Assembly: GCA_964017145.1 (NCBI GenBank) | Contig: OZ024843.1 | Location: 1,479,001 to 1,543,000 of the forward strand | DNA: 64,000 nucleotides | Source of the DNA: Agrocybe praecox | Taxonomy: Eukaryota > Basidiomycota > Agaricomycetes > Agaricales > Agrocybaceae | Reading direction: 5' to 3' | Part shown: in pieces, positions 7,741 to 31,901 of the stretch | How the letters are laid out: the number at the start of each line of letters is the position of its first letter | Numbering within the stretch: the first letter of the stretch is position 1 | The notes under the pieces: generated by a model | Databases searched by the model: none | The model's input: the letters and a program-made list of their open reading frames with translations, nothing else | Told to the model about the DNA's origin: nothing | Program-made: the position numbers and the translations under genes

Positions 7741-8751
7741 CAATGTGAAAAATTTATTCATTTGGGTTTATCAAAAGAGATAATCTTTAAAATATTTCAG
7801 TTAGCTCAGAAGGTTCTAACTACAATAATCTTGAAAAAAAAAAAAGACATATGACAACTGTTCTGAGTTGAAGGGAAAGTACAAGTTAATGTAGACAGTA
7901 ATATTAACGACTCTGATTACATGACAATGGATTTGGTAACATAATTGAAGTGGTAATACAATTTTAGATTGGACAGTGTTATATGAAAAGCTGTGACAGA
8001 AAGTTGAACTTCTATAAGGTGGAATCTTGTTAGCTTTAATTGAGACTAAAGGTTACATACTTGGATTGAGAAGAGAAACTTCTTGCTCAAATAATAACAA
8101 AAGGACAGCAGTGTTTCAGATAGTATATAGTGTATATTCCAAGCTTGTATTTTATACAACTTGAAGATATAAGCAAAAGTACACAGACACAGAGTTTAGT
8201 GTTTAAGTTGGTAACAAAAATAAAATGGAAAAAATAAAATGTTTTTTTTTGTTCCAAATTTTGTGGCCTTTTATAATTTTCTTGAGCATAGCCCCAATTG
8301 TTTCTATGACTTTGAAACAAGTAGAATGTAGGAGCTACATACTCTTTTAAGTAATTAGCATACAGAACTACTGTGCGCTATCATAATGATAGTGTGATGG
8401 TTCACAAGGTTACACAGGGCTGTATATATGGTTGCAAACAGTGCTAAAGCTGTGCATAACTTGTTGAAACAGTGTATTGCTATGCAAAGGGAGGAATAAC
8501 ATTATGCCAATGTGTCAAGACAACTAGTACTATAACAACAAGGAAAAATAGTGTTTTATTATAACATATCATTTCTGTGTTATACATGTATATGTTCTTG
8601 CTTTAAACATACTGGTTTTATATCAAACAAAAAGCATGTTTGATACTATCAACTTTCCCTAGTTGATCACACCAGGCTACTGAGGTACAAGCTTAAGTTG
8701 ACACTGATAAATTATTGATTTGAGATTTTATTTAGACGTTCATTGCCTATA

Positions 8752-10358
8752 CAGTAAGGGACAAAACTGTTCAAATGTTTTTTGAAGTTGGACTTTTAGG
8801 CAAATAACTTTGGACTGAGTGATCCAAATCATTTGAAATTTTACACCAAGGTAGACTAGGATGTTGGTAACAGATGACAATTTGTTTCTTTACATAGTCT
8901 GTTTTCATTCCCACGATATTAATATATTACTAGTACATATACATTTGAACGGTTTTGTCTCTACTCTATTATAATATAGTATTCTAAGATTCTAGTACTT
9001 GGTATAACCCCCCTTGGCCTGTAAAACAGCCTGGATCCTTCTAGGCATACTCTCTATCAGATTCTGACAAACAAAAGCTAGAATATTATTCCATTCTTTT
9101 TGTACCCTCTCCCACAGCTCCCCAATTTCAGAAGGTTGCCTCTCATAGCCTCCAAGTTTAATTTTGACATGATGCCAAAGATGTTCAATTGGATTTAGGT
9201 CAGCTGATTGAGGGGGCCACTCTATGAGTTGTAATCCACTGCTTTGAAGCCATTTCTGGGCCTTTTTGCTCTTGTGTTTGGGGTCATTGTCCTGCCAAAA
9301 AAGGACATCCTCTGATTTTTTGTTGTAATATTCCAGGCTCTGCATGAGTTCATTATTCAAAATGCTGACAAATAGATCAGCATCCATCCTCTCATCAATC
9401 TTGGTCCCATATCTCACTCCTTCTCAAAACATACAGCCCCAGAACATCAAGTTTCCTCCTCCAAACTTGACCGTTTCCTGTACCAGCCTATCGGTCAACC
9501 CCTCTCCCTCTCTTTTCTACACCCACTTCTTCCCATCTGACCCCAAATGATTGATTTTGGTCTCATCTGTCCAGCAAACCCTCTTCCATTCATCCACTGT
9601 CCAGTGTTTGTGTGCTTCTGCATAGTCCATCCTCATCCTCCTATACCTTTTGGAGAGAAAAGGCCATTTTTGCTTTGCCACAGCTTTTATACCAACTCCA
9701 CAAAGTGCTCGGCATACTGTTTTTACAGAGAAGGATGTGTTGGTTATGTTTTGTAATGTTTTGGTGGTATCAGTGGCACTGTCAGCCTTCTGAGAGGTGA
9801 TAAGACAGATAGCATAATGGGTATCAGCAGAAGAAAGCTTGCGTGGACGGCCACCAGCAGCTTTAGAAGTTGATGATCTATATTTGGAGTGAATATTGGA
9901 TATAGAACCAACACTTATGCCAGTGATGGTGGAGATTGAATGACCAGAAAGACCTTTGTCAAGGAGTTCAAGAATATGAGTGAGTTGAGCAGGAGTGAGT
10001 GATCGTGTGAGGGTCTGAGAAAGGTTTTGATGTGGGAGATGGTTGAAGGTTGGGCACAGAGTATATATACATATTCTAAGGCAGTCACATGATTTTATTT
10101 GTACTTATTTGCTTTGATTAAACAAAGTCATGTGCTCAATGTAGAGTAGGGACAAAACTGTTCAAATATATATGTATCAGTAATATATTAATATCGTGGG
10201 AATGAAACTATATTATGTAATGAAACAAATTGTCATCTGTTACCAACATCCTAGTCTACCTTGGTGTAAAATTTCAAATGATTTGGATCACTCAGTCCAA
10301 AGTTATTTTTTTAACAGTCCAACTTCAAAAAACAATTGAATGGTTTTGTCCCTCACTG
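8752..10358 (-). mobile_element. Second Tc1/mariner subfamily element (1,607 bp)
   Basis: The ends read CAGTAAGGGACAAAACTG and, at the other end, a near reverse complement, flanked by TA (8750-8751 and 10359-10360). The arms are about 215 bp and, as in the 1119-2713 element, each has an inverted inner copy of the terminal motif (about 8941-8968 and 10142-10170). The transposase is on the minus strand. The two arms differ from each other at several positions, so this copy is older than the 1,595-bp pair. Confidence 0.93.
8992..10053 (-). pseudogene. Tc1-type transposase with two in-frame stops
   Basis: One phase can be read from about 10053 to the TAG at 8992-8994. It has a helix-turn-helix region (PAQLTHILELLDKGLSGHSI), a GGRPRKLS motif, TDETK, WQDNDPKHKS and NPIEHLW. 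I saw no ATG at the expected N-terminus, so the start may be lost. Two internal stops occur: TAG at 9517-9519 (context KKWV-stop-K) and TGA at 9424-9426 (context GCMF-stop-EGV). Both sit where the 1,595-bp relative or Tc1 proteins have Trp. The first lies at exactly the codon that is TGA in the other subfamily. Confidence 0.88.
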
Positions 10359-10385
10359 TATTGCTGACTGATAATTAGAACAAGC

Positions 10386-11068
10386 TAAAAATAGATCAAT
10401 TATATTTTAAAATTGATCTTATTTAGTCCTGTCTTAGTTGCTATCATTATGTATTGATAGGCTTTTACACAAAAATTTCAAAGTCCAAAGTTATGATGCC
10501 CACTGGGTTTTAGCAGTATCCATACATGTGCTGGCATTGAGTCAGAGCAGTAGGAGCTGGAGCTGTTGAGCTTTGCTCCTTCTGCAATGCTGATGCCTTC
10601 GATGGGGGAGGTGTTTGCCTATCAAGTTAGGTTGGGCCCAAAGAGCTTGTAGCTCATTCTTATAGAGGATGAGCAGTGAGTAATGATGTGGTATTAGATA
10701 AAGATAACTAACATGAGTAGTAAGCTAAAGTAGTTACTATAAACAACTATAAACAAGTATTATATAATGTTTGCGAACAGAGCAAGATTAGATAAGGTAA
10801 CTTCTTATCTAATCTCGGCACAAGATATTAATAGTACTGCTCACAAAGAACAGCAGATGTAAGGAAAATGATATATACATGTTACAAAGTTCACTTGCCT
10901 TATTAAGGTATATGGGTGTGACATCCTTTAAGACCTAAGTTGTTTTGTGTTTGGGTGTGTTAGTGGCTGATTATGACTTAATTATTATCATTTTGTATTT
11001 GAGGCCATAAAATAGTAGCAGTGGACCTTGAATGTGTAAATACAGGCAAGCAAAAAGTCATGTTTTGT
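10386..11068 (+). repeat. Dispersed repeat, probable solo LTR or promoter-bearing element
   Basis: Two blocks (10386-10492 and about 10893-11068) match, with divergence, 25676-25941. The right block shares the landmark GTATTTGAGGCCATA followed by GGCAAGCAAAAAGTCATGT. A TATA-like stretch in the 25.9-kb copy and the lack of coding capacity fit an LTR or a non-autonomous element. Exact termini could not be set. Confidence 0.5.
10493..10884. mobile_element. 392-bp insertion inside the dispersed repeat
   Basis: The related copy near 25.7 kb lacks this segment. Here it is bracketed by a 7-bp direct repeat CAAAGTT (10486-10492 and 10885-10891). No terminal inverted repeat or ORF was recognised. It is most simply a small non-autonomous insertion with its target duplication. 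Confidence 0.45.
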
Positions 11069-11458
11069 ATTTTGCAGTACTTTACTCTGCCCTACGACTA
11101 CCAACCGGATCTGACTAGAAACAAGTGGGTCTGACTGAGTCTGAGCAGAACTGACCATTACCAAGTGTTTCTGACCATACTTTTGGTTGATTATCAGCTA
11201 AAACACACATCCTGGTGGAGTCTAGTGGATTAGCATGCTTTTTGTGCTGGATTCCACTGGAGTCTGGTGGACTCCATTCAGAATCCAGTCAAACTTAGTA
11301 GAAAATTGCCATTTGTATGTTTTATGCAAGGTCACTTATGTTTTTTAAAACATAACATTCACCCAAAACATGAAATTCACATAAAAAAACATTAAAAAAA
11401 AAGCGAAATTTAATTTATTAAATGTATAATATACATAATCTTATATACCTATATAATT

Positions 11459-11622
11459 GGAGAGAAAATAGGGGAAGAAGGGGAAGGGGAGAAATAGAGA
11501 AGAGGAGAGGGAAGGAGGATAAAGAAGAGAGAAGGGAAGAGGGTGGGGAAGAGGGAGAAAGGAGATGGATGGAGGAGGACAGGAAAGGGAGCAGGGGAGG
11601 TGGGGAAAGGGGGCCAGTGGGG
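11459..11622 (+). repeat. Homopurine tract of about 160 bp
   Basis: An almost uninterrupted run of G and A with mirror-like G/A blocks on the plus strand. Open frames here (Glu/Arg/Gly-rich or Pro/Ser/Leu-rich) are composition artefacts. Such tracts can adopt triplex DNA. No gene is called. Confidence 0.7.
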
Positions 11623-11929
11623 GTCCAGACAGAGGCTGCAGAGCACCATGACTAGCAGCCAGCCTGTGGACAGTGGCGGTGAGCGAGGAGACTGTGTGGA
11701 TGCAGCATTGTCTGGTAGATTCATGTATCAATCCTGGCAATATGCACTTTTTTTGATACATCATACAGGGCAGTTGCCCACCCCGGCAGTGATATTGCAG
11801 GCAGAGAGCAGTTGGACTTGCCAAACATCAATAAACATTGCTGCTTTTGATATTTTCGGACAGTAATTATATGTTGCAGGTGTAGTGGTTATGTTTTTTG
11901 TTGCATTATGTCAGATTTATGTTCTAAAT

Positions 11930-12240
11930 ATATTTTATGATTTTTTGATGCCCTTTGCGCACCTGAAAAGGGACGGTATGAGATGGATTGGAAAACATAA
12001 AAGTGGATGACGTGTTATTTATAGACGGACACAGGAAACAGTGTCCCCAAAGTGCCTGAAGCTGTAATTGGGCTCCTGCGCTTCGTTGGGAATCGTTCGA
12101 GGCGCTAAAAAAGTGTAGATATAATGTAGGAATATGTTTTGATTTTTGGGGGCACTTTGCGCCATCAAAAGAGGACGGGAGGGGATGGATCGCGAAACAT
12201 AAAACCGGATGACGTGTTATTTATAGCTCATTTTGACAAT
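11930..12240 (+). repeat. Two diverged tandem copies, period about 202 bp
   Basis: A block containing CTTTGCGC, a GGGACGG or GGACGGG motif, GATGGAT, AACATAAAA and GATGACGTGTTATTTATAG occurs near 11938-12025 and again near 12138-12227. The second copy is diverged. The function is unknown. Confidence 0.6.
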
Positions 12241-12529
12241 TTCAGGTGTTGCGCTATTTTTATATATGAGATCATCATTTTTTGTACATACTATATTTAC
12301 TCTAGATATATATCAGATATAGATTAGATTAGATATAAAAAAAGCGACTTCCTCTGCTTTTGTTTTTGGGTGGCCCTTCCATATCTGGTAGTAATTTCCA
12401 TTTTGGTCAATATTTTCCAAAACATGTAAAATTCTTTGAAAAAAATCCTTTTATTTTGTATGTTATAAAACATAAATATTATCTACGCTACATATTCTTC
12501 CCTCCTGTCTATGTCTGTCTCCCTACCCG

Positions 12530-13343
12530 CTCACTTGTCCCTACCCATTCGTCCCCACACGCTTGCTCATCTAAGTGGCTGCTCATATGTGTCACCTTGG
12601 TCATGGGCGTTCGGTCGTGGGTGCTCCTGCGTGGGTACTCGTACATGTCACCTCGGACATGGGTGCTTGTAAGTGCCTGCTCGTTCTGTCCTCGTTGCCT
12701 GAGCTGTCGTCCTCATTGCTTTAGCCGTCGGCCGTGGTCCGTCGTCCTCCCCGTAGCCGACCTGTGTCGTCCTCGCCATAGCCATGGGCTACATTGCTCA
12801 AGCCGCAGTCGTCACTGTCTTTGCCCTAGCCTTAACCGTCCTCGCCCTAACTGTCTTCGTGGTCAGTCGTAGACGTCGTCCTCATGGTTGTGGTTGTGGT
12901 CATGGTGGTTGTGGTTGTGGTGGTTGTGGTTGTGGTGGCCCAGGTCGTAGTGGTCGTGGTAATGGCTGTCAAGGTGGTTGTGGTTGTGGTTGTGGTTGTG
13001 GTCGCGGTCGCGGTCGTGGTGAGCCTCACACCACACATCTCTGCCCTCTGTCGTATCGCATCCATTCGTCGTTGTCGTTGTCGTCATCCAGAGAAATACC
13101 CACATCCTTATAAAAAGGGGAGGGGCAAGGCGGAGTCACGGACGTTGACGTCGAAGTCGAAGTCATGGTGTGAAGCCCACATCCTCTAGAATGAGGGAGG
13201 GGCGGCTGGGGAGTCGACGGCGGTGGTGATGGTAGTTGATAAGGAAGAAATCAACCATTCAAATGATTGATTTCTTCCAAATCCAGTAGTTTCCCACACC
13301 GGCCCGGTGTATAACCGGGTCGCGCTCATCGTCGCACTCGACG
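12530..13343 (+). repeat. GC-rich dispersed element, copy 1
   Basis: GC-rich sequence with a (GGTTGT)n-like low-complexity run (about 12885-13015), then two CCCACATCC ... GAGG(G)GAGGGGC motifs, then a hairpin (13243-13278) and a CACACCGG ... CATCG tail. The same order is found at 18187-18729. It is cut at 13344 by the gypsy fragment. Open frames on both strands here come from the short-period repeat and are not called as genes. Confidence 0.6.
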
Positions 13344-15221
13344 ATGGAGGTGAAATATTGTCAGGGTGCTACTGGGGCTGTTTTATCTCAGGAAGGTTCA
13401 GATGGGAAATGGCATCCTGTGGCATTTATGTCTAAGTCTCTTTCTGAAGTAGAAAGGAATTATGAGATCCATGATAAAGAGATGCTGGCTATTATCAGAG
13501 CACTAGATGAATGGAGACATTATCTTGAAGGGACTCAACACACCTTTGAGATCTGGACAGATCACAAGAATTTAGAGTACTTTATGACTGCCCAGAAGCT
13601 AAGCAGAAGGCAGGCCAGATGGTCACTCTTCTTGTCCAGATTTGACTTTTCTCTTCATCATAGGCCTGGTAAAAAGTCCTTAAAGCCAGATGCTCTTTCT
13701 AGAAGATCAGACCATAAGAAAGGGGAGAATGACAATGAAAATGTAGTCCTTCTCAAACCTTCCTACTTTAAAATCCAGGCTCTCAAACAGAGTCATACCA
13801 CAGTAGCTGGTCCAGAGACTGATCTTCTTAAGAAGATCAGAAAAGCAAAGGACTTTGATGAGAAAGTGGTGAAGGCAGTTCAGGAACTCAAAAACTCTTC
13901 AATCAAGAAGATAGATGGACAGGAATGGTCAGAGGAGCAAGGGCTTGTTCTCTACAAAGGGAAGGTGTATGTTCCAAAAGACAAAGACCTTAGAAGGAAA
14001 ATTGTAGAACTCCATCATGATACCTATCTTGCTGGACATCCAGGGAAATGGAAGACAATAGAGTTAGTCTCTAGAAATTATTGGTGGCCAGGAATGTCTC
14101 ATTATATTGCAGCCTATACCAGAGGATGTGATAGATGTAATAAGACCAAGACATTCCCTGCTAAGCCTGTTGGCTTTCTGACTCCAACTGAAATTCCCTC
14201 TGATGTCTGGCAAACCATTACTGTGGACTTTATCACTGGCCTACCTGAATGTCAAGGGTACAATGCCATTATGATAGTTGTAGATAGGCTTAGCAAGATG
14301 ATCCACATCATACCTACCACAGATGAGGTCACATCTGAAGGGACTGCTAAGCTCTACAGAGACTATGTCTGGAAACTGCATGGTCTACCTATCAAAATCA
14401 TCTGTGATAGAGGTCCTCAGTTTGTCTCCAAGTTTATGAAAGAGCTCAACTCTATACTGGGTATTCAGACTGCTTCATCTACAGCCTACCATCCTCAGAC
14501 TGATGGACAGACAGAAAGAGTCAATCAGGAAGTAGAACAGTATCTCAGGCTCTTCATAAACCATAGACAGGATGACTGGGTAGAATGGTTGGCCTTAGCT
14601 GAATTCTCCTATAACAACAGAGTTCAAGCATCTACTAGGCAGACACCATTCATGCTCAATAATGGTAGACATCCTAGAATGGGCACAGAACCTCTCAGAG
14701 ACAGCAAAATGGACACTGTAGATACCTTTGTTAAAAACATGGAAGAGGCCAGAAAAGAAGCAGAGTCTGCACTCAAAAAGGCTGCTAATGACATGGCTAG
14801 ATTCTATGATAGAAACAGAGGTGCTCCTACTGAGTACAAGGTTGGAGACATGGTCTGGTTAGATGGCAAGGATTTAAAAACTGATAGGCCTTCCAAGAAA
14901 TTGGATGACAAGAGATATGGACCATACAAAATCACCAAAGTTGTTGGTTCAAATAAGCTGCAGTACTTGGTCAAATGGAAAAACTATCCAAATGAAAAAA
15001 GCAGTTGGGAACCTGCTGAAAATTTGAAGAAGGCAGCCAAATCAATCAAAGAGTTCTATGCCAAGCATCCAGCTGCACCCAGAAGAATTTCTGCTCTTAC
15101 TTTTGATAGACTTTCTTTTTCACCTTTAATTAACTTCACTGAACCTCCTCCTCCTCTGAAACCCTCTAAACTTACTCATACATGTGCACATTGTGGGAAA
15201 TGTGCCTTAGAGAGGGGGTGA
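13344..15221 (+). CDS. Ty3/gypsy pol fragment: RNase H, integrase, partial chromodomain
   Basis: An open frame of 625 codons. It begins in RNase H (TGAVLSQEG, WTDHKNLEYF, DALSRR). Next comes the integrase zinc-binding module (HHDTYLAGHPG ... CDRCNKTK) and the DDE core with DFITGLPE, DRGPQF and HPQTDGQTERVNQ. A GPY/F-like module (KRYGPYKI) follows, and the C-terminus is chromodomain-like (LVKWKNYP, SSWEPAENL), as in chromoviruses. Between GPY/F and chromodomain the usual linker and first chromodomain strand are missing: VVGSNK runs directly into LQYLVKWK, which suggests an in-frame internal deletion. The frame is otherwise intact, but the element is 5'-truncated and cannot be autonomous. The ATG at 13344 belongs to flanking sequence. 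Confidence 0.9.
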   Translation: MEVKYCQGATGAVLSQEGSDGKWHPVAFMSKSLSEVERNYEIHDKEMLAIIRALDEWRHYLEGTQHTFEIWTDHKNLEYFMTAQKLSRRQARWSLFLSRFDFSLHHRPGKKSLKPDALSRRSDHKKGENDNENVVLLKPSYFKIQALKQSHTTVAGPETDLLKKIRKAKDFDEKVVKAVQELKNSSIKKIDGQEWSEEQGLVLYKGKVYVPKDKDLRRKIVELHHDTYLAGHPGKWKTIELVSRNYWWPGMSHYIAAYTRGCDRCNKTKTFPAKPVGFLTPTEIPSDVWQTITVDFITGLPECQGYNAIMIVVDRLSKMIHIIPTTDEVTSEGTAKLYRDYVWKLHGLPIKIICDRGPQFVSKFMKELNSILGIQTASSTAYHPQTDGQTERVNQEVEQYLRLFINHRQDDWVEWLALAEFSYNNRVQASTRQTPFMLNNGRHPRMGTEPLRDSKMDTVDTFVKNMEEARKEAESALKKAANDMARFYDRNRGAPTEYKVGDMVWLDGKDLKTDRPSKKLDDKRYGPYKITKVVGSNKLQYLVKWKNYPNEKSSWEPAENLKKAAKSIKEFYAKHPAAPRRISALTFDRLSFSPLINFTEPPPPLKPSKLTHTCAHCGKCALERG

Positions 15222-15679
15222 TATCAGGGTTTCCCCTATTTTCCCCTATTTTTCTATATTTATTTCGCATTTTTCCCTTTCTCAGTTATGCAGATATCTT
15301 ATCTCTTTGATTATCACTCAGATCTTTGATTAGATACTTATCATCCTTATTTCCCATGAGCACTGCCTCAATCACTCCACATCATTCTTCCTCTTGTTTC
15401 ATGATGTCATTGTCTTATTCATCATTCCTTTATGATGTCATTATCTTACTCATCCTTTTGTTTCATGATGTAATGTAGGAATATTCTAGAACACCTGTAG
15501 AGTATAAATACTGTACCTGTAGGTAGCTGTAGCCCCAGCTTCAATCTCTTAGGATATCCACTATCATTGGTGTGATCTCTTAGAACCATTGAGTGTCTCT
15601 CTCTCTCTTCATCTCTCTCTCTCTCTTGCTTTGTCTTTGTTGGTGGCCTTGTCACACTGATCTTAGTGTTGCCCTGACA
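15219..15679 (+). repeat. 3' LTR of the gypsy element
   Basis: Starts TGATATCAGGG next to the purine tract and ends CCCTGACA. It contains AGTATAAATACT near 15503, a likely TATA region, and (CT)n runs around 15595-15630. It is homologous in reverse orientation to the LTRs at 4967-5555. It lies directly against the 3' part of the minus-strand gene 15446-16540. Confidence 0.88.
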
Positions 15680-16540
15680 CTGGTTGTCCTTGCCGCAATG
15701 AGAGCGCTTCGAGGAAGGAGCCTCATCAGTCTCACTGTCTGGCAAGGTACGTTTAGTACCAGCAATTGGTACATCCGGCTCACCACGTTCTGGCACTCCA
15801 GCATCGCCTTTGTCTGGCGAAGTGTCATTTTGAATAATGGGAGGCGGAGGCGGGGTCCAAGTAGGAGATTGAGTGGGTGAAGGTTGACGAGAAAGTGGAG
15901 GAGGTGGGCGAGAATGAGGGGGATGCTGTATCGCTGCGGCATTCAATAACGAGAGGTTGGCAAGAGATTGATGCTGCTCAACGGTAGCAGCAGCTTCTCT
16001 GGGACTATAAGTGACCGCTGCAGGTTGGGCGCTAGTAGTAACTTCCTGGGAAATCGGATTAATGACTGCCTGAGACAAGGCAGTGTTAGCATTCACTTGT
16101 TGAGGGTTCAGGACTGCTGCTGGACCTGACGAGACAGCAGCAGCAGCTCTGAGTTGGGGGTTGGGTTCAGACTGGTTGAGTGCTGTATAAGGAGCCGAGA
16201 CGAGAGCTGGAGTGTGCATCAAAGTTGTACTAGCTGCCTGAGGGTTCAAAACGGGGTTATTTGCGGTCGATGATTGGTCCGAAACCCCGTAATTAGAGAC
16301 GCTGTCGAATAGGATGCTCTCCGATTCTAGCTCGAGAGCATTGAGGGGTAAATGGCCTTCACTGAGGTTGAGGGAGCAAGAGTGGCACTCGTCAACCGCT
16401 GCAAGGGGGTAAGCTCAGAGCACAAATATGTAGAGAAATTCAGTGATACTCACTATAACATTTTTTGAGGAAACTACCGAATAAAGGAACAATGATTTCC
16501 TTGTACCGCTGAAAGACGATTTTTCTGTCGGTGATTTATG
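15446..16540 (-). CDS. Truncated hypothetical protein, 3' end formed by LTR
   Basis: A minus-strand exon (16398 to the LTR border at 15680) encodes an Ala/Gln/Ser/Pro-rich low-complexity protein. It is preceded by a GT-AG intron (16453-16399) and part of an upstream exon reading YKEIIVPLFGSFLKKC. After 15680 the frame continues antisense through the gypsy LTR for about 70 codons to a stop at 15446. The natural C-terminus is therefore lost and replaced by LTR-derived sequence. Tracts such as SRPPPPLSRQPSPTQSP and an acidic/basic KRTLPDSETDEAPSSKR stretch suggest a nuclear protein, but I recognise no family. The upstream start was not located. Confidence 0.4.
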
Positions 16541-17458
16541 CTTTGACAATCACACAAAACACAACCAACAACAAAATCCAGAGAAAGAGTGGGCTAGACC
16601 TAGATAAGACGACTCTCTCCCTGTGAGTTCGGGGGTGGGAATAAAGTTACTTCGTTCCTAAGAAAGGTTTGTTAGTGTAAAGATTGTATAGGTTTAAGGG
16701 TTTGTGATGAGCTTTTGTCCTAGACAAAAGTTTGAGATCGAATGAGAGAGTAGAAATCAAAGTGAACGTGTTCCACTTTGAAATCAGAGTAAACATCGAA
16801 AAAGAAGAGAATAATCGAAGCTTGGAATGTTTTCCAAGCTATAGAATTGACTGCCGAGACTGAAGATTGACTGAATGAATACTGAACTGAAAAATAGCTG
16901 CTTGAATCGGTACAATTGTCCTATGATAGGGGTGTACTTCTTGTCTACTTTACAGGATCTAACTAGCTTTTATACTACAAATCCTGCAAGGCATGAGTAA
17001 TCGATGACAAGTAAGGTTGAAACGAATGACAAAGAATAAGGGGTTAAATGAATAGGCTGACTGAGCGAGTGAGTCAGGAATGACAAAGGAATGGGTTGAA
17101 ACGATGGAAAAGAAGGAGAAAACTGTCCATTGCTCGACGAAATGACTAAGAAATGAATAAGAATGAGTAATAAATAAAAAAGTTGACTAATGCGCAGCAA
17201 AGAATGACCAAGCACATCTTTTTGAATGATAAATCGATCATAGTTGACTTGACAATTAGTGAAATCGACGGATGGAAGGAATTGAGCTATTTCCAGCTGA
17301 TGGATTGCTATATTTGGCGGATGTAACCTTAGCGTAGCTGCGTTGTTGATGTATCAGTTCCCGTGACTCATAGTGACTTGTGATAGGCATGTGACATCGA
17401 ATCATGTGTTTGGAATGATGGTTGCACAGCTGCTTGATGGCCTAGGCTTTGCATGATG
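16541..17458. other. Gap without a recognisable gene
   Basis: Contains many short repeats of a GAATGA(C/A)AAAG kind between about 16985 and 17215. I see no convincing exon. Confidence 0.5.
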
Positions 17459-17947
17459 TCATCGAAGTCTTTTAATAGAGTAGATGGGATGCGACGGATT
17501 TAGATAAGTGGTGAATATGCTGTGCCGTTGTATGATGTAAGCGTAGGCATATCTTATCTTCTGTGTGATGCTGAGGGACACTTGTGATCGTGGAATAGCA
17601 ATGCGTGGCCTTGTGAATAATGCTGGTGCCGAACTTCTGGTTGTCGATACTGCGAAAACTATAATTCCTCGTTCATAATGCACGATTTCCTCGAGGCGAA
17701 TGATTTTTGATGTGTCGTCCGGCTGAATTCTGTACGTAAAACTGACGGTGTCTCCTTCTTGAAAAATATGATCCTCCATGTAATGTGTCGCTAACCAATT
17801 TTCGCGATTTTCGTTTGCATCAAAAACTCCGGCAATTTGAATAAATGGATATATTGAGGCTTTGTTGATTTTCTGAGGTCCGGAAGAATTGCCGACATCC
17901 TTGGACTGTTGAACAAAGGATTGGACAGAAGGGGAAGACATTTTCAA
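17459..17947 (-). CDS. Hypothetical protein, 162 codons
   Basis: An open frame from ATG at 17947 to a stop at 17459. It has a Ser/Gln-rich N-terminus and a mixed alpha/beta-like middle (KASIYPFIQIAGVFDANENR, EGDTVSFTYRIQPDDTS). No family was recognised. It could be one exon of a longer gene shared with 15446-16540, because both are on the same strand in the same GC range, but no connecting exons were seen. Confidence 0.4.
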   Translation of the reverse strand: MKMSSPSVQSFVQQSKDVGNSSGPQKINKASIYPFIQIAGVFDANENRENWLATHYMEDHIFQEGDTVSFTYRIQPDDTSKIIRLEEIVHYERGIIVFAVSTTRSSAPALFTRPRIAIPRSQVSLSITQKIRYAYAYIIQRHSIFTTYLNPSHPIYSIKRLR

Positions 17948-18186
17948 AGGTGAACGCGTAAGACGATGAACGTTGAGAGGAAAGAATGAATCGCCGTGGA
18001 TTGTGGTGACGGTTTCATGACTTGGGCCTGGAATGAATAGATTTCGGAAGAATTGGTGCCTTATTTGTTGCGATAGAGTTGTGATGATAAATTAAAATGG
18101 AGAATTACGAAAAAGGAAATATTGAAATTTAAAAATAAACAATTGATCTCTTATGCAATTTCAGGTTCGTTCATGTTCAATCAAAT

Positions 18187-18729
18187 ATGACGCATGACAG
18201 TGTTCGTACCAGCTCGCTGTTGGTGCCTGCCCGCGTTTGTGCCAGCTCGAGTTCCGTGCTACTTGTTGTCCTCGCGCTAGCTGTTGTTCGTGCTCGCCCA
18301 AGCCGTAGCCACCCTAGCCATACCCATCGTCACCGTCGTTGTATCGTCGTCATCATCATTGTGATGCACCGCTCACATCCCTGTCACGAGGGGAGGGGCT
18401 GGTTGCTTTCGTTATCGTTGTGGTTGGTGTCGTAGGTAGTGGGACAGCAGTGGTAGCGACGATGATTGGTGTTTGTCGTTGTTCGTCGCCATTCGTGTAT
18501 GTTGAGCGGAGGTTTCGTACGTGCCTTATACCTCACCAAGCACTGCCCACATCCCTGCAGTGAGGGGAGGGGCTAGGTGCAGAGTGCCGGCGTGGTGATG
18601 AGCACTGATAAGGAAGAAATGAACGCGCATTGGTTCATTTCTTTCCAAATCAGGCCTTTCCCACACTGGTCCGGCTCATAGCTGGTTCGAGCTCATCGTT
18701 GTGCTTGTCGGCGAGAAGGTCTCTGCAAT
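18187..18729 (+). repeat. GC-rich dispersed element, copy 2
   Basis: Shares with 12530-13343 the GC-rich leader, two CCCACATCC ... GAGGGGAGGGGC motifs (near 18374 and 18548) and a hairpin at 18612-18646. It also shares a tail with CCCACACTGG ... GGTTCGAGCTCATCG. The tail contains GGTTCGAGCTC, close to an RNA polymerase III B box. No protein-coding evidence. Confidence 0.6.
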
Positions 18730-19668
18730 TAGTGATGTGCCGGCCCTGGCTTGGCCCAAAAGCCCCGGCTTTGGCTTTAAAAAATTCAGAGCCAGGCCAA
18801 AAGCCAAAATGGCGGCTTGGCCAGGCTTGGCTTTGGCATAAGCCGGGGCTTTCTCTATTTTTAAACTGATTATATAAGACATCTTAAAAAGGAAATTTTA
18901 TTCAATTTAGGACATCGTCGTCGTCGTTATCTATGTCAATAATGAAAGAGTCCCAACTAGAGAGTCCATTTTCGTCTACCCAGTCAGCATTACCATCATC
19001 ATCTACAATTTCGAGCTCCTCTTCGAGAATGGATGAAGGTGCAGGTTCTTGAAAGAGGAGATCAGATTTCATCAAGCACTTTATTACCTGGAGTGCTTCA
19101 ATGATGTCTGCGCCCAATCTGTTTCGCCGCTTACTAATAGTAATGCCTGCAGAGGAGAATGCCCGCTCGCTTGAAACAGAGGACCCCATAATTGAAAGAT
19201 AGTCCAATGTGAGCGAAGCCCAGACAGGAAAACGAGTTTCGTTCAGCTAAAATTACATTATATAAGCAAAAAAATGACAAAGAAAAACAAAGCACTTACG
19301 CCCCACCATTGAATTGGAGACATATCGTCAGGAACAACATCTACCGTATCAAGATATTGGTTGAACTCATGTAACCATGGACTTGATTCAACACCTGGAG
19401 AGGGAGATGGTACCGAATTGTCCTCGGAGTCTTCAAGATGCGCCATAAGTTTGGCAAGTTTCTTGTTGCCCTTGACAGCAGGCTTTGGTCGACCAGTTTC
19501 TCCGTACATCTCAAGATGACGCTCTTTGAACTATATCCGTAGAATAAGATTTGTACTTGATGTATATGAAAAAAACATACAATTTTTTCGACTGAGGATC
19601 GCACTTCTTGCTGAAGTGATGATGACCAGTGTTTCTTGAAGTGATCCATTTTCGAGTCTGGGTTAAAT
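18730..19668 (-). mobile_element. Truncated hAT transposon
   Basis: The right half of a hAT element. The candidate terminus is TAGTGATGTGCCGG at 18730, followed by a subterminal region packed with GGCTTGG and GGCTTTGG repeats on both strands (18742-18855), then the 3' exons of the transposase on the minus strand. The other end is missing: at about 19668 the sequence switches to an integrase-type gene on the plus strand. Confidence 0.7.
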
Positions 19669-19700
19669 ACAGTGATATTTCTAATGAGAAGTTGGATAAG
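18902..19700 (-). pseudogene. hAT transposase C-terminal part
   Basis: Three exons can be read on the minus strand. The first ends SSVEKI (19700-19580), the second ends SPIQWWG (about 19534-19300), and the last runs from LNETRFPVWASLTLDYL to the stop at 18902. The last exon holds the hAT C-terminal dimerisation block (SSVSSERAFSSAGITIS, followed by KRRNRL), preceded by the conserved WW and RFP positions. The RNase H-like catalytic part and the N-terminal BED finger are absent because the element is cut at about 19668. What remains is a fragment with an acidic Asp-rich tail. Confidence 0.85.
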
Positions 19701-21117
19701 CTTATTCGTCAGTATCAGAAGGAACACCCGGATGCTGGCAGAGCTTACAGTGTAGGATATCTACGTTCACACCATAATATTTGCGTACAACGTCGACGGG
19801 TAATAGAATCAATGAAGAGGGTAGATTTGCTTGGGCAAGGCATGCATGCACGCATTAGCAAAAAGAAGGCTCAGCAGGTGTACTCGGTCCCCCGCCCAAA
19901 CACATTATGGCATATTGATGGCCACCACAAGTTGATTCTTTGGGGTATTGTTATACACAGATTTGCAGATGGATACTCACAAAAGGTATTTCCACCACAT
20001 ATCCTATTTTTCATTCAATGATAGCGTCAAATAGGTCACTGGGATGCATGCAAGTAATAACAACTCAGCTGAAACAGTCCTCAAAATGTTTTGCGAAGCT
20101 GTTGAGAAGCATGGACTGCCTTCACGTGTTAGAGGTGATCAAGGCAGTGAAAATCGTGATGTCTCTATTTTAATGATAATTTTACGTGGAATTAACAGAG
20201 TGAGCTTTATGTGGGGATCATCTGTGTTCAACATGAGGATCGAACATCTGTGGCTCGAGGTTGGAAAGTGATTCGTGCAAGCTTGGCATGCATTCTTTAC
20301 GCACCTAGAAAGGGTCCATTTATTCAACTGAAAGGACAAAAATCATCGATGGATATTGCATTATCTCTTCCTGGATTTAATCAATGAAGACTGTGATAAG
20401 TTTGCCACTGAATGGAATGCCCATCCAATTTTGCGTTCCGGTGGTAACTTCTCACCAAATGTATGTCTTTATTTCTATTCATATTGGTACATATTAACCA
20501 GTAATTTATACTAGGATATTTCATTCATGGGAGAACTCGAACATGGCTTGTACGCAGAAGAGTGCAGCGAGATGAATGAAAGCGAGATAAACATCTTTTA
20601 TGGCTTTAATGAAGATGGCGAGCCAATTGAAGCCACGGACACAGGTGATTCCACAGGTTCATCGGATGAAGAATCTGGTAGTGATCAAGGCATGTGTATC
20701 ACTCCCAAAGAAGACAACACGTGTTTTATGGCCCCCGAAGATGAAGACAACGGCGGTACCGTTATGGAGAATGAAAAAGGAGGCAAATCAATTAATGTAA
20801 TCTTACAGGAAATGAAGAAAACGGAGCATGATGTGTCTGGTCTTGCCATTGATGTTAACTCGGTAAGTCTGGTTGTTTTCACAGTATTATATCGTTACTT
20901 AAGAGATCTACAGATGATTGATGCTAATATACGACATGATCCAGTCCCTGTACCTACAAGAACTTGCCCATTTAATAATACTCAGCTAGCCCTCTTCAAA
21001 GAAGGGCTAAATATTTTGAGACAACACCAAGAGGTTCCTTCCGGTTATGGAATTAGTCCAGAAGAATGGGGACCGTCTGGATATCCAACGATGGAGATAA
21101 TTTCGGTTGGACTTTGA
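19669..21117 (+). pseudogene. DDE integrase-core protein (basidiomycete type), broken
   Basis: Plus-strand exons resemble the integrase-core proteins that are multi-copy in basidiomycetes. They show VQRRRVIESMKRVD, then WHIDGHHK (first Asp) before an intron near 19987-20034. After it come RVRGDQGSENRDV (second Asp), SFMWGSS and RIEHLWLEV (Glu). Two in-frame TGA stops follow (20269-20271 and 20329-20331) inside an otherwise conserved stretch (HAFFTHLERVH, LHYLFLDLINEDCDKF). Further introns lie near 20459-20515 and in 20862-20913. A C-terminal part with an acidic stretch ends PSGYGISPEEWGPSGYPT. The N-terminus is missing at the junction with the hAT fragment. Confidence 0.8.
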
Positions 21118-21355
21118 AAGCAATCATTTCCAATTTCTCTCCCTGATTCTGTATGGCGGCCTCGAGCTGAGGATTGGACATGGGCTTTACATCTTATGTA
21201 CCTGATTTTAGATAATTAAATATATCTTTTCTTTTTGTATTCTTTTTTTTTTGTTCTATAAAAGAAGTCCAAAATAATCGCATTTTACTCAGTCCCCTTC
21301 CATTCATCTCATATTTACGGAGCGTAGCACATTCCTTTACTTATTGTCATCACAT

Positions 21356-22679
21356 ATGTCTCTCTCTCTCGGAAAGTGTCGTGCTACTACACCTGATGCC
21401 CTCTCTGGCTCAAACTCTGATGGTCAGCAGAGCTCCAGTCCTTATGCTCCACAGCAAAAGAAGGCCAGGACAGCCCTGTCTGTCTCAGGTTCACTTTCAC
21501 AGAAAGGCGGCTCAGGTGCTGGCATGGCTGCTGTGACATCTTTGCTCAATTCTGCACGCACTGAAACGTCTGGCAGGCTGAAGAAGGGTAATGCACAACC
21601 TAAATCGAAACCTGCAATGAAGGCCACAGTCTCAGTGAGTTGAATGTTTGTATCATATATTCTGAGCTTAATTATTTCTCCCACAATCCTAGGATGACAC
21701 TTTTTGTGTAGGAAAATTTGTTTTCCTCATTTGTAGTATCGAGATGGTACTCTACAGATTTCTCTTTATATTTTCTCTTATTTAACGAGATTATCCAGGC
21801 GCCGCAGGATAGATCAGCTCTCTGCAGCTCTCTTTATGTCACTCGGGAGCCTGTATCGGTTGGACCAGACGATCTTATTCACTTCATGCAGTATAGGCTA
21901 TGCATCCAGAATGAGGACAGATACAAGTTCAAGAAAAGCGAAGGATTTGAAGAACTCAATGCCAAGTTCAAGGAACTATTCCCAACTGTCTTCACAGCCA
22001 TCGAAGAACACGACTATCTTGATGGCAAAATTTCTCGATGGCTGGTTTGTGCAAAGCGATCAGGTCATGGGAAAGACATCATTGTTCTCTCTGACGATCA
22101 TCATCGTCCCAATTCTATGGACATTTTTGCTGCAACTCAAAATGGCAAAGCTTGGCTCAATTTCAACAAGGGCATATTATTCTTGGGTAGAATAATTTGG
22201 CTATAAATATTCATGCTTAATCTAATCTATCATTTCATAGTTACTCTGGTACCGGTTCCTCTCAGCAGACTCCAGATCCCCGGAACTGGTGACCTCCAGC
22301 GGCAGTTTGAGTTAGAAAATGGCATTTCTTATGACAGCCCTGAACACTCCGATATCAGCGACTCAGAGAGCGACTACACCCGGGGTCCTGTTGCCGGGCC
22401 GTCTACTCAACCGACCAGGGTACTTAGGTCAACATCTGGAGTGCTCAGAACTCGTCCGGATCAGGACAATGATGTTATCTCTATATCTGATGGTTAGTCT
22501 GACTTTCTTTAGCAATTTACAAGAGCTCAATTGAATATTTAGGATCTGATCATGAAGACGCAACCAATGTACAGGAGGATCTCTTGCCAGCATACCTGAC
22601 ATTTCCCGACTCCGAGGAAGAGAAGCTGTTTGCTGATTCTATGGGATTGGATGGTGATGAGAATCCCTGGCACATCTGA
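21356..22679 (+). CDS. Hypothetical multi-exon protein near TE cluster
   Basis: Starts MSLSLGKCRATTP at 21356. A Ser/Lys-rich first exon ends VKATVS-like at about 21633. A very short exon (YRDGTLQ, about 21737-21757) follows, then a main exon (APQDRSALCSSLYVTREP to NKGILFL), then acidic exons with SDISDSESDY and a final exon ending EKLFADSMGLDGDENPWHI at 22679. Splice sites are GT-AG throughout. No family was recognised. The basic N-terminus and acidic C-terminus are like those of the accessory genes at 31915-36428, so it may be an accessory gene of the same kind of element. Confidence 0.5.
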
Positions 22680-26099: not shown

Positions 26100-29000
26100 T
26101 TGTATCGCTGTAAGGTGTGCAGTTCTGGCCGCCTTTTCGAAAGCTGCCGGGTTAGACGACACGAAGACTCTGCAAGTCATCGCTCATCGCTCCTGGCATT
26201 TCATTCATCTCTCGAAGCTCCCCAAAACTCAGCACAAGGAGGCAATTCCCTTGTTCTCGATGGACTTGTTCACCTCCTTGTTTCGCTCTCGGAGAATCCC
26301 CACCAGTCTGCATACCCCCCTGGTCATCCACTACTGGCAGGTTCAGCACACTTGCCGGGTCCTGATTGCTCTCCATTGCCCTTAACCGGTTTGGACTGGC
26401 ACCTGGATTACAGTGGGGATATGACTGCCGACTTGCCTTATGAACAACAGCTTGCGCAAGATATCGCTCAGCGGACACTCGATTTTTTGAATGGAGATGT
26501 TAGTGAAGATGAGGACGAGAACCCTTATGGGTTGGAAAGCAGTAGTGACGAAGACAGTGCGTAGTATTGATTTTTATGTTATTTATGGTCCGTTCATTCT
26601 CAGAATTACAGGTCCAGACGAAGACAAAACAGTATTGCAAGGTGTTGACTCAGGATCTCTTCCTCGTAAACGTCCTCGAGGTGTCACAACTGATCCTACC
26701 ACGGCTCGTGCTTGGTATCCCTGGCAGGACCGCGTCGTGAGTCCTTTCTCTTCTATAATCTCATATTCTATTCATACTTATTTTGTCTATTTAGACTTGT
26801 TCACTCGATGTTCTCATGCATTTGCCACGTTCTGTATTCTCTCGCAAACAGTTAGATTTATTTTTGTGGTTGCTATGTGTCAACCAGGTTGACGATGTTC
26901 CATCCGTCAAAACTATGAACACCCTCAATAAAACCTTGCAAAACATGGTTGGGATTGACACCATCGAGTACAATGGAAGAATGGGTCATCGTTATCACGT
27001 TAACAGCATAGGTCAAATTCTCGCACAAGTAGGTTTTTTTATTCCAAGCATATAATGACACATGCACTGATTGTTAGGAATTGACTTAATCAAAGAGAAG
27101 AATTTGCCCAAAGACCAAGTTAAAGAACAAGCTGGGGATCTTAGCATCCCCAGACCCTAAGTTTATATACATGATGAACCTGTAAACTACCCACGGTCCA
27201 TCAAGGGATTGTTACATAAGCGTCTATGTATAGAAAAAGGAAATGCATAGTGTGGGGTTTGAACCCAAGAGCTGGTGGGACAGTGTCACGGTGTAACAAT
27301 AGTGTGACTGCTTATGTTGTAGGGTGGACACAAAGATGTGCCCTGACACCATCTCCCCTCTAAAGGTCGACGCCCCGACGACCTGGTCTTACTGGCCACG
27401 ACCGCGACCAAACGGCCGGGCACGACGCGCGGTTTGAACTTCGGAACCGCTAGAAGTATGCTCAACATGAAGGGCACCAACCTCCATTGGTGAGCCAGGT
27501 GCAAGTGACGAGGATGGGCTGGAGCGAGTATCGACAGCCATAGGAGAGGGCGGGGGCAGAGAAGCCGATCCGGATCGGGGTGTCTGCGTAGAAGGAGTAG
27601 GGGTCGCAGTACGAGTAGGAGTTGGAGGCGAGACTGCGACGTTAGGAGGGGCGGCAGTAGCGCCAGAGGAAGGCTTGGCCTTCTTGGCACGAGGGTTGCG
27701 GATGCGACGACGTGCAAGCCGCTTGCCGATGGCAACGAGGGCATCACCGACCTCGCAGGCGGTGCCCCTGATAGTGACGGCACGCAAGCCGGAAGAAGGG
27801 TGTGCCGGGGCAACCGACACCTTTGCGTGCGATGTGTCATGGATCTGGCGAAGGCCAGTCCCCGCGCGCCCAATTACGTGGCCAGCCTGTTCGTCTGCAA
27901 TAGACAGGGTGACAACGGTCTTCTCAAGGGCGGCTTTGGTAGGGGCAGCTGTAGTAGCTGTGCGGACGGATTGAGGAGCGGAGGTCCTGGTAGCTGGGGA
28001 CGTGGTAGGTGCAGCCGGGCGATCCTTCCTAGATGAGCGTCGAGCACGAGGAGTGCGAGCAGAGGGAGAGGATGTAGCCGGGGGAGTGGGTAGGGGAGCT
28101 GTGAGGCTGTTGAGTTTAGACTCAATGGCTGCAAGGCGAGCTTCAACCTTCGCTTCAGTGTCAAAGCTAACCTGTTGGGACCTAAAGAGTAGGGCAAAAC
28201 GGTCCTCAAGAGACATCGTCATGAACCCAGTGAAAGGCGAGGAGGAGTCAGCCATAGAGTATAGTAGGGAGGGCGATTGTAGAGTAGAGTAGACGAGCAA
28301 CTGGGTGCAGAGGGCAGGCAGTTGTTGGGTAGCTTGTTCTTTTGTCAGGAATTGACTTAATCAAAGAGAAGAGTTCGCCCAAAGACCAAGTTAAAGAACA
28401 AGCTGGGGATCTTAGCATCCCCAGACCCTAAGTTTATATACATGATGAACCTGTAAACTACCCACGGTCCATCAAGGGATTGTTACATAAGCGTCTATGT
28501 ATAGAAAAAGGAAATGCATAGTGTGGGGTTTGAACCCAAGAGCTGGTGGGACAGTGTCACGGTGTAACAATAGTGTGACTGCTTATGTTGTAGGGTGGAC
28601 ACAAAGATGTGCCCTGACACTGATACTGTATACATAGGAAATGTGTAATCCTCGAGTGCGCCGTGAGCTACACTTTTATCCAGAGGACGCAGGCACACAT
28701 CTCAGTGAAGCGCGGCAGGGTTCTCGTTGGCTCAATGAGCTCTCGCCGCAAGAGGGTGCTCCCATGATACGCCTCGGTAACGATGATTTTTACACTTTAG
28801 AGCCTACGTTGTTGAAGGATGGAACATACTGTATACCATTTTGGTGGTTCACTCGCGTTCACGCACCCAGTCCAAAGCCTGTTTTCTATTGTCGTGCATG
28901 GCAAATTGAGTCCGTTGTTCATAACGGGGACTCAGGCTGGACTGTACGCCAGGATCATGAGATTGAAATTCCCGAAAGCAAACTTCTCATGAACTTCCCT

Positions 29001-31901
29001 GATCTCTGCCAAAATTTCTCAAAATATGGTGTACCCCATCCTAGTAAAATTCTTGGTATGCTCCATATCTGATATATTTACCCGTTTCTCAGTTATTAAT
29101 TATTTTCAACAGGAGTTTTTGTGGACGAACATGATGCAGACATCAAGCAGTGGACATACACAAACCCCGTCTTGGGAAACCGGTGGCGTAATCTCTCCAA
29201 AGGCCATCGAACATTTGCGCTGCCTTTATGGCTTTACTGTGATGATACATCGGGAAACATGTCCAAAAAGTGGAACGCCCACAATAGCTTTCTATTTACA
29301 CTTGCAGGACTGCCCCGCAAACAGGTCGCAAAGGAATATAACATTCACTTCGCCTGTACTTCTAACATAGCACCTCCTTTAGAGATGATGGATGGGGTGG
29401 TTGACCAACTCGAGTACGTTCATATTCTATTTCACTGCTTTGCGGACTAATAATAAACTTGCATCTGTTTTAGATCTGGACAGAACGAAGGAATCTGGGC
29501 TTGGGACTGTGTTTATAAAGAGCCTGTTCTTATTTTCCCTACTGTCCTGGCCCTGCTCGGCGATAATCCTATGCACAGTGAATTTGCATGCCACATTGGG
29601 CTGGCCGGTAAATATTTCTGTCGATGCTGTTGGGTAAAAGGCAGTGATGCCCAAGATGGCGCAAACCATCCCGGCCAGCCAGCGGACACTGATAGTAATG
29701 CCTCCCGACCCAATAGTCCTGCACAATCTATCAACAGCATGGTTGATGAGCCAGAAATCGGTGAACATGCAAGCAATGGTCACACGAATCACGGCCTTTG
29801 TGAGGGTATGATTGCTATTTTCTTATTCGATGTAATGTTCAATAACATAATCAATTTGTGTCTAGCGTGGCAAACCTCGTTCGAAAGCGGAAACTCGCCA
29901 GACCCTGGCTGGATACTATGAGCGTGCATGCGTTATTGGTAAAAAGACCAAACTTCAAGCCGAGCGCACTGATACTGGGATAAAGGATAAGATGCAAGAG
30001 TTTTTTCTTGACAAGCTCCACACATCATATGCCAAAAAACGCGGCCACAGTGAAAAACAGAGGGCTCTAGATGACGCAATCACTCAACTGCCCGAAGACA
30101 TCACAAGTCCCGTTTGGCGGCTCAAAGGTGAGTTTGTTTTGTTTTGTTATTGCAGTATACTTACCAACCAAATCTGCCAGGCCTTGATCCACATCAAGAT
30201 ACGCCTGTAGAGATATTACATGTTGTTCTTCTGGGCTTTGTGAAATACTTTTGGCATGACTTGGTCAAGAATCAAATTTCGCCAGAGCAGAAGCCTTTGT
30301 TAATCACCCGAATTGACTGCTTTGATGTCAGTGGGCTCGGTATTTCCAAGCTTTCTGGACAGACTCTCGTTACCTATGCCGGCTCGCTCACCGGTCGCGA
30401 TTTCCGTGCTATAGCTCAAATGGCACCTATGGTTATCCAGGATCTTGTTCCCACTGACGTCTTTGAGGCATGGGTTGCCCTGTCCAATTTAATTCCACTG
30501 ATATGGCAACCAGTTATCGAAGATGTGAACATCTATTGTGTAAGTCAGTCTCCTTTATCTAACCCTAATGTTGTGCTGACCGCATTAAAAGGCACTTCTC
30601 GAGAAAGAAATTCACAATTTTCTTATTCGCACAGCACGCTGGACAACTGCGTGGTTCAACAAATCCAAGTTTCACATTATTCTTCACCTTCCAGAACATA
30701 TTCGTCGCTTAGGCCCAGCAATACTGTTTGCGACAGAGGCCTTTGAATCATTCAATGCTGTTATTCGCGCGAAAAGCATCCATAGTAACCGCCTTGCACC
30801 CTCACGCGATATTGCGTTAGCTTTCACTCAAGGCAATCGCATTCGACACCTTTTCAGTGGCGGTTATTTCTTGCCTCTCAATGAACACGCAAACCAATCA
30901 CATACATTCTCAGATAATTGTACCGACTGGAGGACAATTGGCCCTGCCGCTCAGGCAATGCTTGGTGATGACACAGTACCGTTAAGCTACCTGGGCCTAT
31001 TAGACGATTCGCCAGGTCAACCAGGTCAATGCGAACTTGATCACCAGCCAGCACGTGCCGCGTCCGAGACGATAACTGGACAGAAACTACCTCACGCATT
31101 TGTTAATGGTGGGAGGGACAGACTGTTTGCCACCGCAAAACAGCTCTGCCTCAGAAATGGTGATTTGTGCACTGTAGGGCAATCTGTAGTTATTCGACGT
31201 CATGATGTTGGCACCTCCTACATTGCGCGTGTATGTGAAATCATTCAGGAACATGGTTCAACCGAATACACAACAGGGATTGCAAGTGGTGTCTTGGTCC
31301 AGACTATGCAGACTATGCCATGTGATAGTTCGTTGGCCATGCCAAAACTGTGCTTATGTTCTGAGTGGTCATTGATTCGTGTGTCGGTCAGTCTTTTTTT
31401 CTGATATTTTTTTTTTCGCTTTGAAGCTGACCACAGACATATTGCAAATAGGATATTATGTGTACGGTCAATGTCCAGCACCACTGTTTTGGCCAAGGGT
31501 GTCAGGCATCGGGTCTCCAGTACATCTATCAAGAACGTGTTCAGACTACAAATACAACAGCGGCCGTTGAACACACCGGAAACCCAGATGATCTGGTCTT
31601 GAATACAGCTCAAATGCGCGATGCTATTTATGTTCAAAGATTCCGTGTACAACCGACAGCTCCTCTAGACGAACAACTCATCATCGAACAGAGTGTTGCA
31701 CGAGTCATTAATAACAGAAAATCGGGGGCCGAGAAGAAAGCAACTGGGCTTGGTGGACGTGGGCAGCTTCGTGCGAGAAGCACATCACCAATGCCTTTGG
31801 GCCCTTCTGGATTGTCAGTGCCAGTGCCACCCACACGGCCGGGGCGTGGACGACGAGGCAGTCTGCTGCCAGGCCAGGGTATTATAGACTTTTCACAATA
31901 A
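26100..31901 (+). CDS. Large TE-associated agaricomycete protein with zinc finger
   Basis: At least ten exons. Exon borders read: up to 26556; 26612-26736; 26795-27028; 28638 to about 29052; about 29113-29413; then from about 29473, 29867, 30180 and 30591; the last (DIMCTVNVQHHC) ends at 31901. The N-terminus has a C2H2-like finger (YRCKVCSSG ... RRHEDSASH). Conserved blocks follow: VLMHLPRSVFSRKQLDLF, LHFYPEDAG, DEHDADIKQWTYTNPVLGNR, LWLYCDDTSGNMSKKWN, NIHFACTSNIAPPLEMMDGV and ALLGDNPMHSEFACHIG. A C-terminal Cys/His cluster is present. From memory these blocks mark a high-copy agaricomycete family, probably transposon-encoded; I assign no catalytic triad. All introns are GT-AG and no stop interrupts the exons. 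No ATG precedes the finger in frame, so the start is unresolved. Intron 3 contains the 1,548-bp LTR element. Confidence 0.65.
27072..27348 (-). repeat. LTR (3' LTR of the KH element)
   Basis: A 277-bp direct repeat copy. In the minus-strand reading of this sequence, a match to the RNA polymerase III B box (GGTTCAAACCC) lies in the U3 part, followed by CTTTTT. Three differences from the other LTR are all A/T here against G/C there, at least one of them a CpG to TpG change. Confidence 0.92.
27389..28300 (-). CDS. KH-domain protein of the compact LTR element
   Basis: 303 codons from ATG at 28300 (a second Met at residue 16, MADSSSPF, is an alternative start) to the stop at 27389. Residues about 47-66 form a short helical, possibly coiled-coil segment (DTEAKVEARLAAIESKLNSL). 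Residues 70-125 are Pro/Ser/Thr/Arg-rich. Residues about 128-198 fit a KH domain: hydrophobic strand TVVTLSIADEQAGHVIG, the GRAG loop (144-147) between two helices, then RAVTIRGTACEVGDALVAIG. The C-terminus is low complexity and ends GRGRGQ. KH domains bind single-stranded RNA or DNA, so a Gag-like RNA-packaging role is plausible. No capsid, CCHC knuckle, protease, reverse transcriptase or integrase is present. The GC content is much higher than in surrounding sequence. Confidence 0.85.
   Translation of the reverse strand: MLVYSTLQSPSLLYSMADSSSPFTGFMTMSLEDRFALLFRSQQVSFDTEAKVEARLAAIESKLNSLTAPLPTPPATSSPSARTPRARRSSRKDRPAAPTTSPATRTSAPQSVRTATTAAPTKAALEKTVVTLSIADEQAGHVIGRAGTGLRQIHDTSHAKVSVAPAHPSSGLRAVTIRGTACEVGDALVAIGKRLARRRIRNPRAKKAKPSSGATAAPPNVAVSPPTPTRTATPTPSTQTPRSGSASLPPPSPMAVDTRSSPSSSLAPGSPMEVGALHVEHTSSGSEVQTARRARPFGRGRGQ
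28331..28440 (-). promoter_or_regulatory. Predicted TATA box, transcript start and self-complementary primer site
   Basis: On the minus strand, TATATAAA (28440-28433) is followed 29 nt later by AGCTTGTTCTTT (28404-28393). Immediately after the LTR, 28342-28331 reads AAAGAACAAGCT, the perfect 12-nt reverse complement. Complementarity stops exactly at the predicted first transcribed base. This is the arrangement known from Tf1-type retrotransposons, where the mRNA 5' end folds onto the primer site and primes reverse transcription. That it works so here is inference. Confidence 0.7.
28343..28619 (-). repeat. LTR (5' LTR of the KH element)
   Basis: A 277-bp direct repeat copy containing, on the minus strand, TATATAAA at 28440-28433 and the predicted transcript start at 28404. 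An 8-bp palindromic arm pair (CTGGGGAT and ATCCCCAG, 28402-28423) lies at the start site. Confidence 0.92.

Follow-up and report, generated by a model that had tools for sequence, protein, structure and literature searches.

How the RNA of a non-autonomous LTR retroelement enters the particles of its helper is poorly understood. A locus in a 64,000-nucleotide stretch of Agrocybe praecox DNA (the window) raises the question of whether such an element may bring an RNA-binding protein of its own to this step. Window positions 27072-28619 hold a complete LTR retroelement, with its sense strand on the minus strand; an initial annotation had described a structurally complete element with 277-bp LTRs, a CTGAT duplication, a purine tract and a primer site, and all of these are confirmed. 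The LTRs are direct repeats of 277 bp each with TG...CA ends (5' LTR, 28343-28619; 3' LTR, 27072-27348) that differ from one another at three positions, all transitions, and the target-site duplication CTGAT flanks the element on both sides (27067-27071 and 28620-28624). The 994-bp interior reads, on the minus strand from the 5' LTR to the 3' LTR, primer-binding site AAAGAACAAGCT (first 12 nt; 28331-28342), remainder of an 87-nt, C-rich leader (28256-28330), one ORF with its stop codon (27389-28255), and purine tract AGAGGGGAGATGG (27349-27361), which adjoins the 3' LTR on its upstream side and would serve in priming. The locus thus shows features of an LTR retroelement: a pair of near-identical direct LTRs with TG...CA ends, and a primer site after the 5' LTR together with a purine tract before the 3' LTR. 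An Rfam search of 26500-29200 found no family, a search of the window for tRNA genes found none, and a PHROGs search gave no match.

The ORF, read on the minus strand from an ATG at 28255 to 27389, encodes a protein of 288 aa that consists of an N-terminal helix, a linker, a type I KH domain, a basic stretch, and a disordered tail ending in RGRGQ. The initial annotation had reported a single KH ORF of 303 residues that lacks capsid, CCHC knuckle, protease, RT and integrase; the single KH ORF and the lack of the other domains stand, but the start has been revised, the 303-aa version beginning at a TTG 15 codons upstream of the ATG, and the N-terminus from the ATG aligning with the N-termini of Agrocybe and Psilocybe relatives. 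KH_1 is the sole Pfam family above its cut-off (residues 115-176, window 27728-27913; E = 1.3e-9, 38.1 bits vs. a cut-off of 21.5); the other matches at E <= 1, KH_KhpA-B and CCDC53, are both sub-threshold, and no gag, zinc-knuckle, protease, RT, or integrase family matches the 288-aa protein at this threshold. The protein has one cysteine and therefore no CCHC knuckle. With one ORF that contains KH_1 only, the element is without the gag-pol genes of an autonomous Ty3 or copia element. An AlphaFold2 model built from 31 aligned sequences (mean pLDDT 65.5) has ten-residue blocks at 89-97 for residues 11-50 (helix at 16-52) and for residues 111-180, with low confidence for most remaining residues. 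Residues 111-180 are predicted to follow the order strand-helix-helix-strand-strand-helix, and GRAG in the protein corresponds to the GxxG loop; profile, secondary-structure order and loop are those of a type I KH domain, and the KH fold, for which an HMM search and structure prediction had been proposed as checks, holds by sequence and by prediction. The closest PDB matches, both by predicted structure and by sequence, are the third KH domains of PCBP2 and hnRNP K, which are cellular proteins with several KH domains, whereas the element protein has a single KH domain and is encoded inside an LTR element. An open frame of this length says little by itself, since ORFs of at least 288 aa arise in 2 of 2000 base-shuffled interiors; homology to the relatives described below settles, on sequence grounds, that the ORF is real.

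The primer site suggests how reverse transcription of the element may begin. Directly downstream of the 5' LTR, 12 nt pair without mismatch with LTR sense positions 216-227 (AGCTTGTTCTTT, 28393-28404 in the 5' LTR), which presumably form the 5' part of the RNA, and position 216 lies 36 nt after the start, at sense position 180, of a putative TATA box, TATATAAA (28433-28440). None of 939 other interior 25-mers equals this match to the LTR complement, the longest reaching 8 nt, whereas base shuffling of the first 25 interior nt gave an equally good match in 9 of 20,000 trials. A 78-nt stretch that starts at position 216 and runs slightly beyond the primer site folds into a structure closed by a 12-bp stem (z = -3.1); of 200 shuffles of this stretch, 2 fold equally well. 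The primer site is thus complementary to the element's own LTR, in the layout of Tf1-like self-priming, and we infer that the RNA starts near LTR position 216. Tf1 and Tj1 are reported to self-prime from a primer site that pairs with the 5' end of their own RNA (PMC4600332), and self-priming is also reported as predicted for Tcn1 chromoviruses and plant TAR copia elements (PMC6317226). The likeness of the KH element to Tf1/sushi, Tj1 and TAR copia lies in a primer site complementary to the 5' end (here presumed) of its own RNA; those elements carry gag and pol, whereas the KH element carries neither.

Further LTR copies show that the family has been mobile. A search of the genome (59.2 Mb in 347 contigs; copy counts are lower bounds) with the LTR DNA at E <= 10 returned ten matches, corresponding to the element's two LTRs and at least seven further places, one of them in two pieces. 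Six of these seven are lone LTRs between their own 5-bp duplications: five are 95-100% identical (duplications ACATG, ATGAC, AAATG, TATAC and ACCAG, the last of these LTRs being broken up by another insertion), and the sixth is 72% identical and lies between AGTAC. The seventh is a 97-nt fragment. Target duplications are thus of a fixed size, 5 bp, at the element and at six of the seven further places, and since five near-identical copies lie between different duplications, we conclude that the family has moved. The element interior was found at least once in the genome, the one occurrence being that in the window. One LTR copy of the family (L006 and L007, G000:C12:1249002-1249911) is split by an insert of about 625 bp; the insert's perfect 19-nt terminal inverted repeats, TAGTGTTGCCGAAGTTCGG, and the accompanying 8-bp duplication, TACATAAG, form what we take to be the signature of a hAT-type non-autonomous DNA transposon.

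Non-autonomous elements often arise by internal deletion, and the element might be what is left, after internal deletion or other shortening, of an autonomous element in which this KH domain stands alongside gag and pol. The initial annotation had named, as a finding that would speak against its reading, that all other copies carry pol. With six of the seven further LTR places being single LTRs and the seventh a 97-nt fragment, pol is absent from all of them, and no pol-bearing copy that shares the element's LTR was found in the genome by the LTR search at E <= 10. Moreover, the genome has 17 KH_1 matches, one of them the element, and the KH places found lie in open frames of 119-323 aa, none of them a long open frame together with pol. 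The protein searches described below covered proteins up to about 770 aa, a limit that leaves room for a parent of this kind among longer polyproteins. We consider internal deletion from such a parent very unlikely.

Three protein searches, the first two of which scored just the roughly 8000 candidates with the most shared words, gave 33, 47 and 39 relatives of the KH protein, 59 of them distinct. The named sources are Agrocybe pediades, Psilocybe cubensis, P. cf. subviscida, Dendrothele bispora, Lentinula aciculospora and Collybia nuda, three of which are Agaricales by taxonomy look-up and the remaining three of which we assume to be Agaricales as well; further relatives come from metagenomes, and the set includes fragments and mixed gene models (P0009-P0011 and P0027). 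The contigs that bear metagenome relatives have a median length of 1502 bases, with 34 of 45 at 1000-1800, a distribution to which we give no weight. A search of viral contigs gave no match. In an alignment of 31 sequences, mean pairwise identity is 72% in the KH domain, 26% in the N-terminal helix, 38% in the linker, 57% in the basic stretch after the KH domain, 31% in the tail and 41% at the C-terminus. Lack of conservation of the ORF, another finding that was to count against the initial reading, is not what is seen at the protein level, at which relatives occur in other genera and at which the evidence for dispersal, decay and constraint is likewise drawn.

In P. cubensis, gene models P0003, P0004, P0008 and P0011 lie on contigs of four different sizes, and P0003 and P0004 share 271 of 275 aligned residues; in P. 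cf. subviscida, P0006 and P0007 share 262 of 266. P0008 differs from P0003 at 44 residues, and 37 of the 44 changes from P0003 to P0008 could be a single C>T or G>A step, as against 1 of 44 in the reverse direction, a pattern that is, to judge from the protein comparison, the mark of a decaying copy. Between Agrocybe and Psilocybe, steps of this type are balanced (13 and 16 of 72). Both P0003/P0004 and P0006/P0007 also show, in roughly the same part of the linker, a gap of 23 or 21 residues between the two members of the pair, which may reflect an intron that exists in the prediction only, or else a copy from which the segment was really spliced out. The Psilocybe model P0009, in which integrase and KH seem to be fused, was not taken as a genuine fusion: the KH residue at which P0009 and P0011 start is about the one at which P0010 stops, a pattern that would result if a further element had inserted at this point and gene prediction had merged the parts.

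The same relatives could be members of an ordinary Agaricales host family of small KH proteins, one of which was caught in an LTR element by chance and plays no role in transposition. LTR elements are reported to take up host genes (PMC5408684), the LTRs around the KH ORF are seen in this genome only and in one copy only, and the Lentinula cluster P0043, with 21 member sequences, could be a conserved host gene. A captured host gene would, however, sit poorly with the genome analysed here, in which no close paralogue of the ORF was found outside the element, the closest of the other KH places being L011, which belongs to a gene with three or more such places and is 35% identical over 72 residues, and with the P. 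cubensis relatives, which are several, dispersed, and near-identical or decayed, in the manner of transposons. We regard chance capture of a host gene as quite unlikely.

A helper that shares LTR ends and primer site with the element, for which the initial annotation had proposed a search, was not found: no element in this genome was found to share both. In BLASTN comparisons at E <= 0.1, the element matched none of 15 integrase-tail loci (L049-L063) and neither of two further loci. A search for the LTR-primer junction with up to three mismatches gave 96 matches vs. 126 with a reversed control, and the single exact match was the element itself. Inspection of 10-kb stretches around five places with a recurring near match, TGACAAATGACCAAGCTT, revealed a 1.7-kb, 93% direct pair at one (L044), a 75-nt pair at another (L043) and no pair at the other three, and in none of the five stretches was a second copy of this 13-nt site found. 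Among autonomous elements we sampled six families, a minority of the families, comprising four Ty3 families with primer site TGGAGCCCACC (from 43 integrase-tail places) and two copia families with primer site GTTATGGGCCCC (from 85 RVT_2 places); a fifth Ty3 family, the LTR of which was not reached, was left out. All six have tRNA-like primer sites and no self-primer, the longest complement to their own LTRs near the primer site, in the families that had one, being 5-9 nt and in no case at the interior start. The LTR end of copia L074, GTCAATTTCTAACA, agrees with the element's 3' LTR end, GTCAATTCCTAACA, at 13 of 14 positions and with the 5' LTR end at 12 of 14, and the LTR of copia L073 has CATGTATATAAA in common with that of the element; because shuffled LTRs reach the L074 and L073 local scores in 36 and 17 of 500 cases, the likeness to copia is a lead, no more. 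LTR length (237 and 461 bp for copia; 786-1224 bp for three Ty3 families) was dropped as a pointer to copia, the LTR of Ty3 family A, at least about 500 bp, being bounded at one end only. In the window itself, 16507-17006 is a copy of the Ty3 family A LTR stretch (C4:1495507-1496006, 98%), 13344-15221 is a 625-aa ORF that we read as, presumably, the RNase H-integrase-chromodomain end of a Ty3 polyprotein, and a search of 6000-22000 revealed no direct repeat as long as an LTR. At 52785-54170, the window also holds a 461-aa ORF with FG repeats, the C-terminus of which looks to us like that of a Nup98/Nup145-type nucleoporin.

We conclude, with a probability of about 0.55, that the locus belongs to an Agaricales family of non-autonomous LTR retroelements, that its sole product is a KH protein, that it is mobilised in trans, and that the protein would act in packaging. 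This reading is supported by the LTRs, the target duplications, the self-complementary primer site, the single KH ORF and its conservation across genera, and likewise from the 72% identity of the KH part vs. 26-57% elsewhere and the dispersed, near-identical and decayed relatives in P. cubensis. Counted against it are the restriction of the LTR context to one copy in one genome, the lack of an element sharing LTR and primer site, the tRNA-like primers of the sampled autonomous families, and the CCC content of the leader. In the mechanism that we propose, the element RNA would start near LTR position 216, fold back, and prime its own reverse transcription; the KH protein, which combines a KH domain of the PCBP/hnRNP K kind with basic stretches, a disordered tail and a helix at the N-terminus through which it may oligomerise, would coat the element RNA or its single-stranded cDNA in a nucleocapsid role and carry the RNA into the particles of a resident autonomous LTR element; and the helper's RT and integrase would copy and insert the element. 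It is the domain layout that suggests a protein coating its own RNA for a helper's particle. The initial reading, in which a KH protein as sole product might package the element RNA into helper particles, is thereby supported in part.

A KH protein encoded by a genuine retroelement could instead, in place of packaging or a nucleocapsid role, act on the host or on the fate of the RNA (its export, stability, translation, or evasion of silencing). In cells, KH proteins of the PCBP/hnRNP K type have roles in RNA export, stability, translation and the like, and it is to this type that the closest folds belong. The leader, too, gave no evidence for packaging: its five CCC triplets place it in the top 2% of the window's 87-mers, and as a packaging signal it was rejected, the triplets being no more than its own composition gives. 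However, a helix joined to an RNA-binding domain and basic arms seems to resemble the RNA chaperones of retroelements, of which L1 ORF1p is one, and we consider a role in host processes or RNA fate unlikely.

Trans-mobilised packaging, our preferred reading, sets the element beside two kinds of known system. In the non-autonomous TR-GAG elements of plants, the LTRs enclose a single ORF, which encodes a structural protein that binds RNA, a Gag; the KH element is likewise a non-autonomous LTR element with one ORF for an RNA-binding protein, but it has a KH domain, no gag family at E <= 1 and one cysteine, and is thus not a TR-GAG. TRIM-like elements are reported in fungi, and TRIMs are described there as having no coding sequences (PMC4558846). 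The KH element resembles a TRIM as a very short, complete LTR element without pol, presumably mobilised in trans, and differs from one in its conserved 288-aa ORF. No LTR element coding for a KH protein was found in the literature searched, which took in few subscription papers and is weak evidence of absence. More tentatively, at somewhat less than even odds, the family would be an undescribed class of LTR element across Agaricales, in which a sole KH ribonucleoprotein takes over the RNA recognition of Gag and a self-priming parasite uses the particles of another element.

A parasitic retroelement may, then, use a KH protein where others use Gag. If so, this would add to Gag and the zinc knuckle a further way of recognising RNA, and an element with an RNA-binding protein of its own, built on a cellular-type domain, would make the RNA-packaging step testable. 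It would also suggest that, in the genomes of mushrooms, a group of unnamed gene models labelled "K homology domain" are transposon genes.
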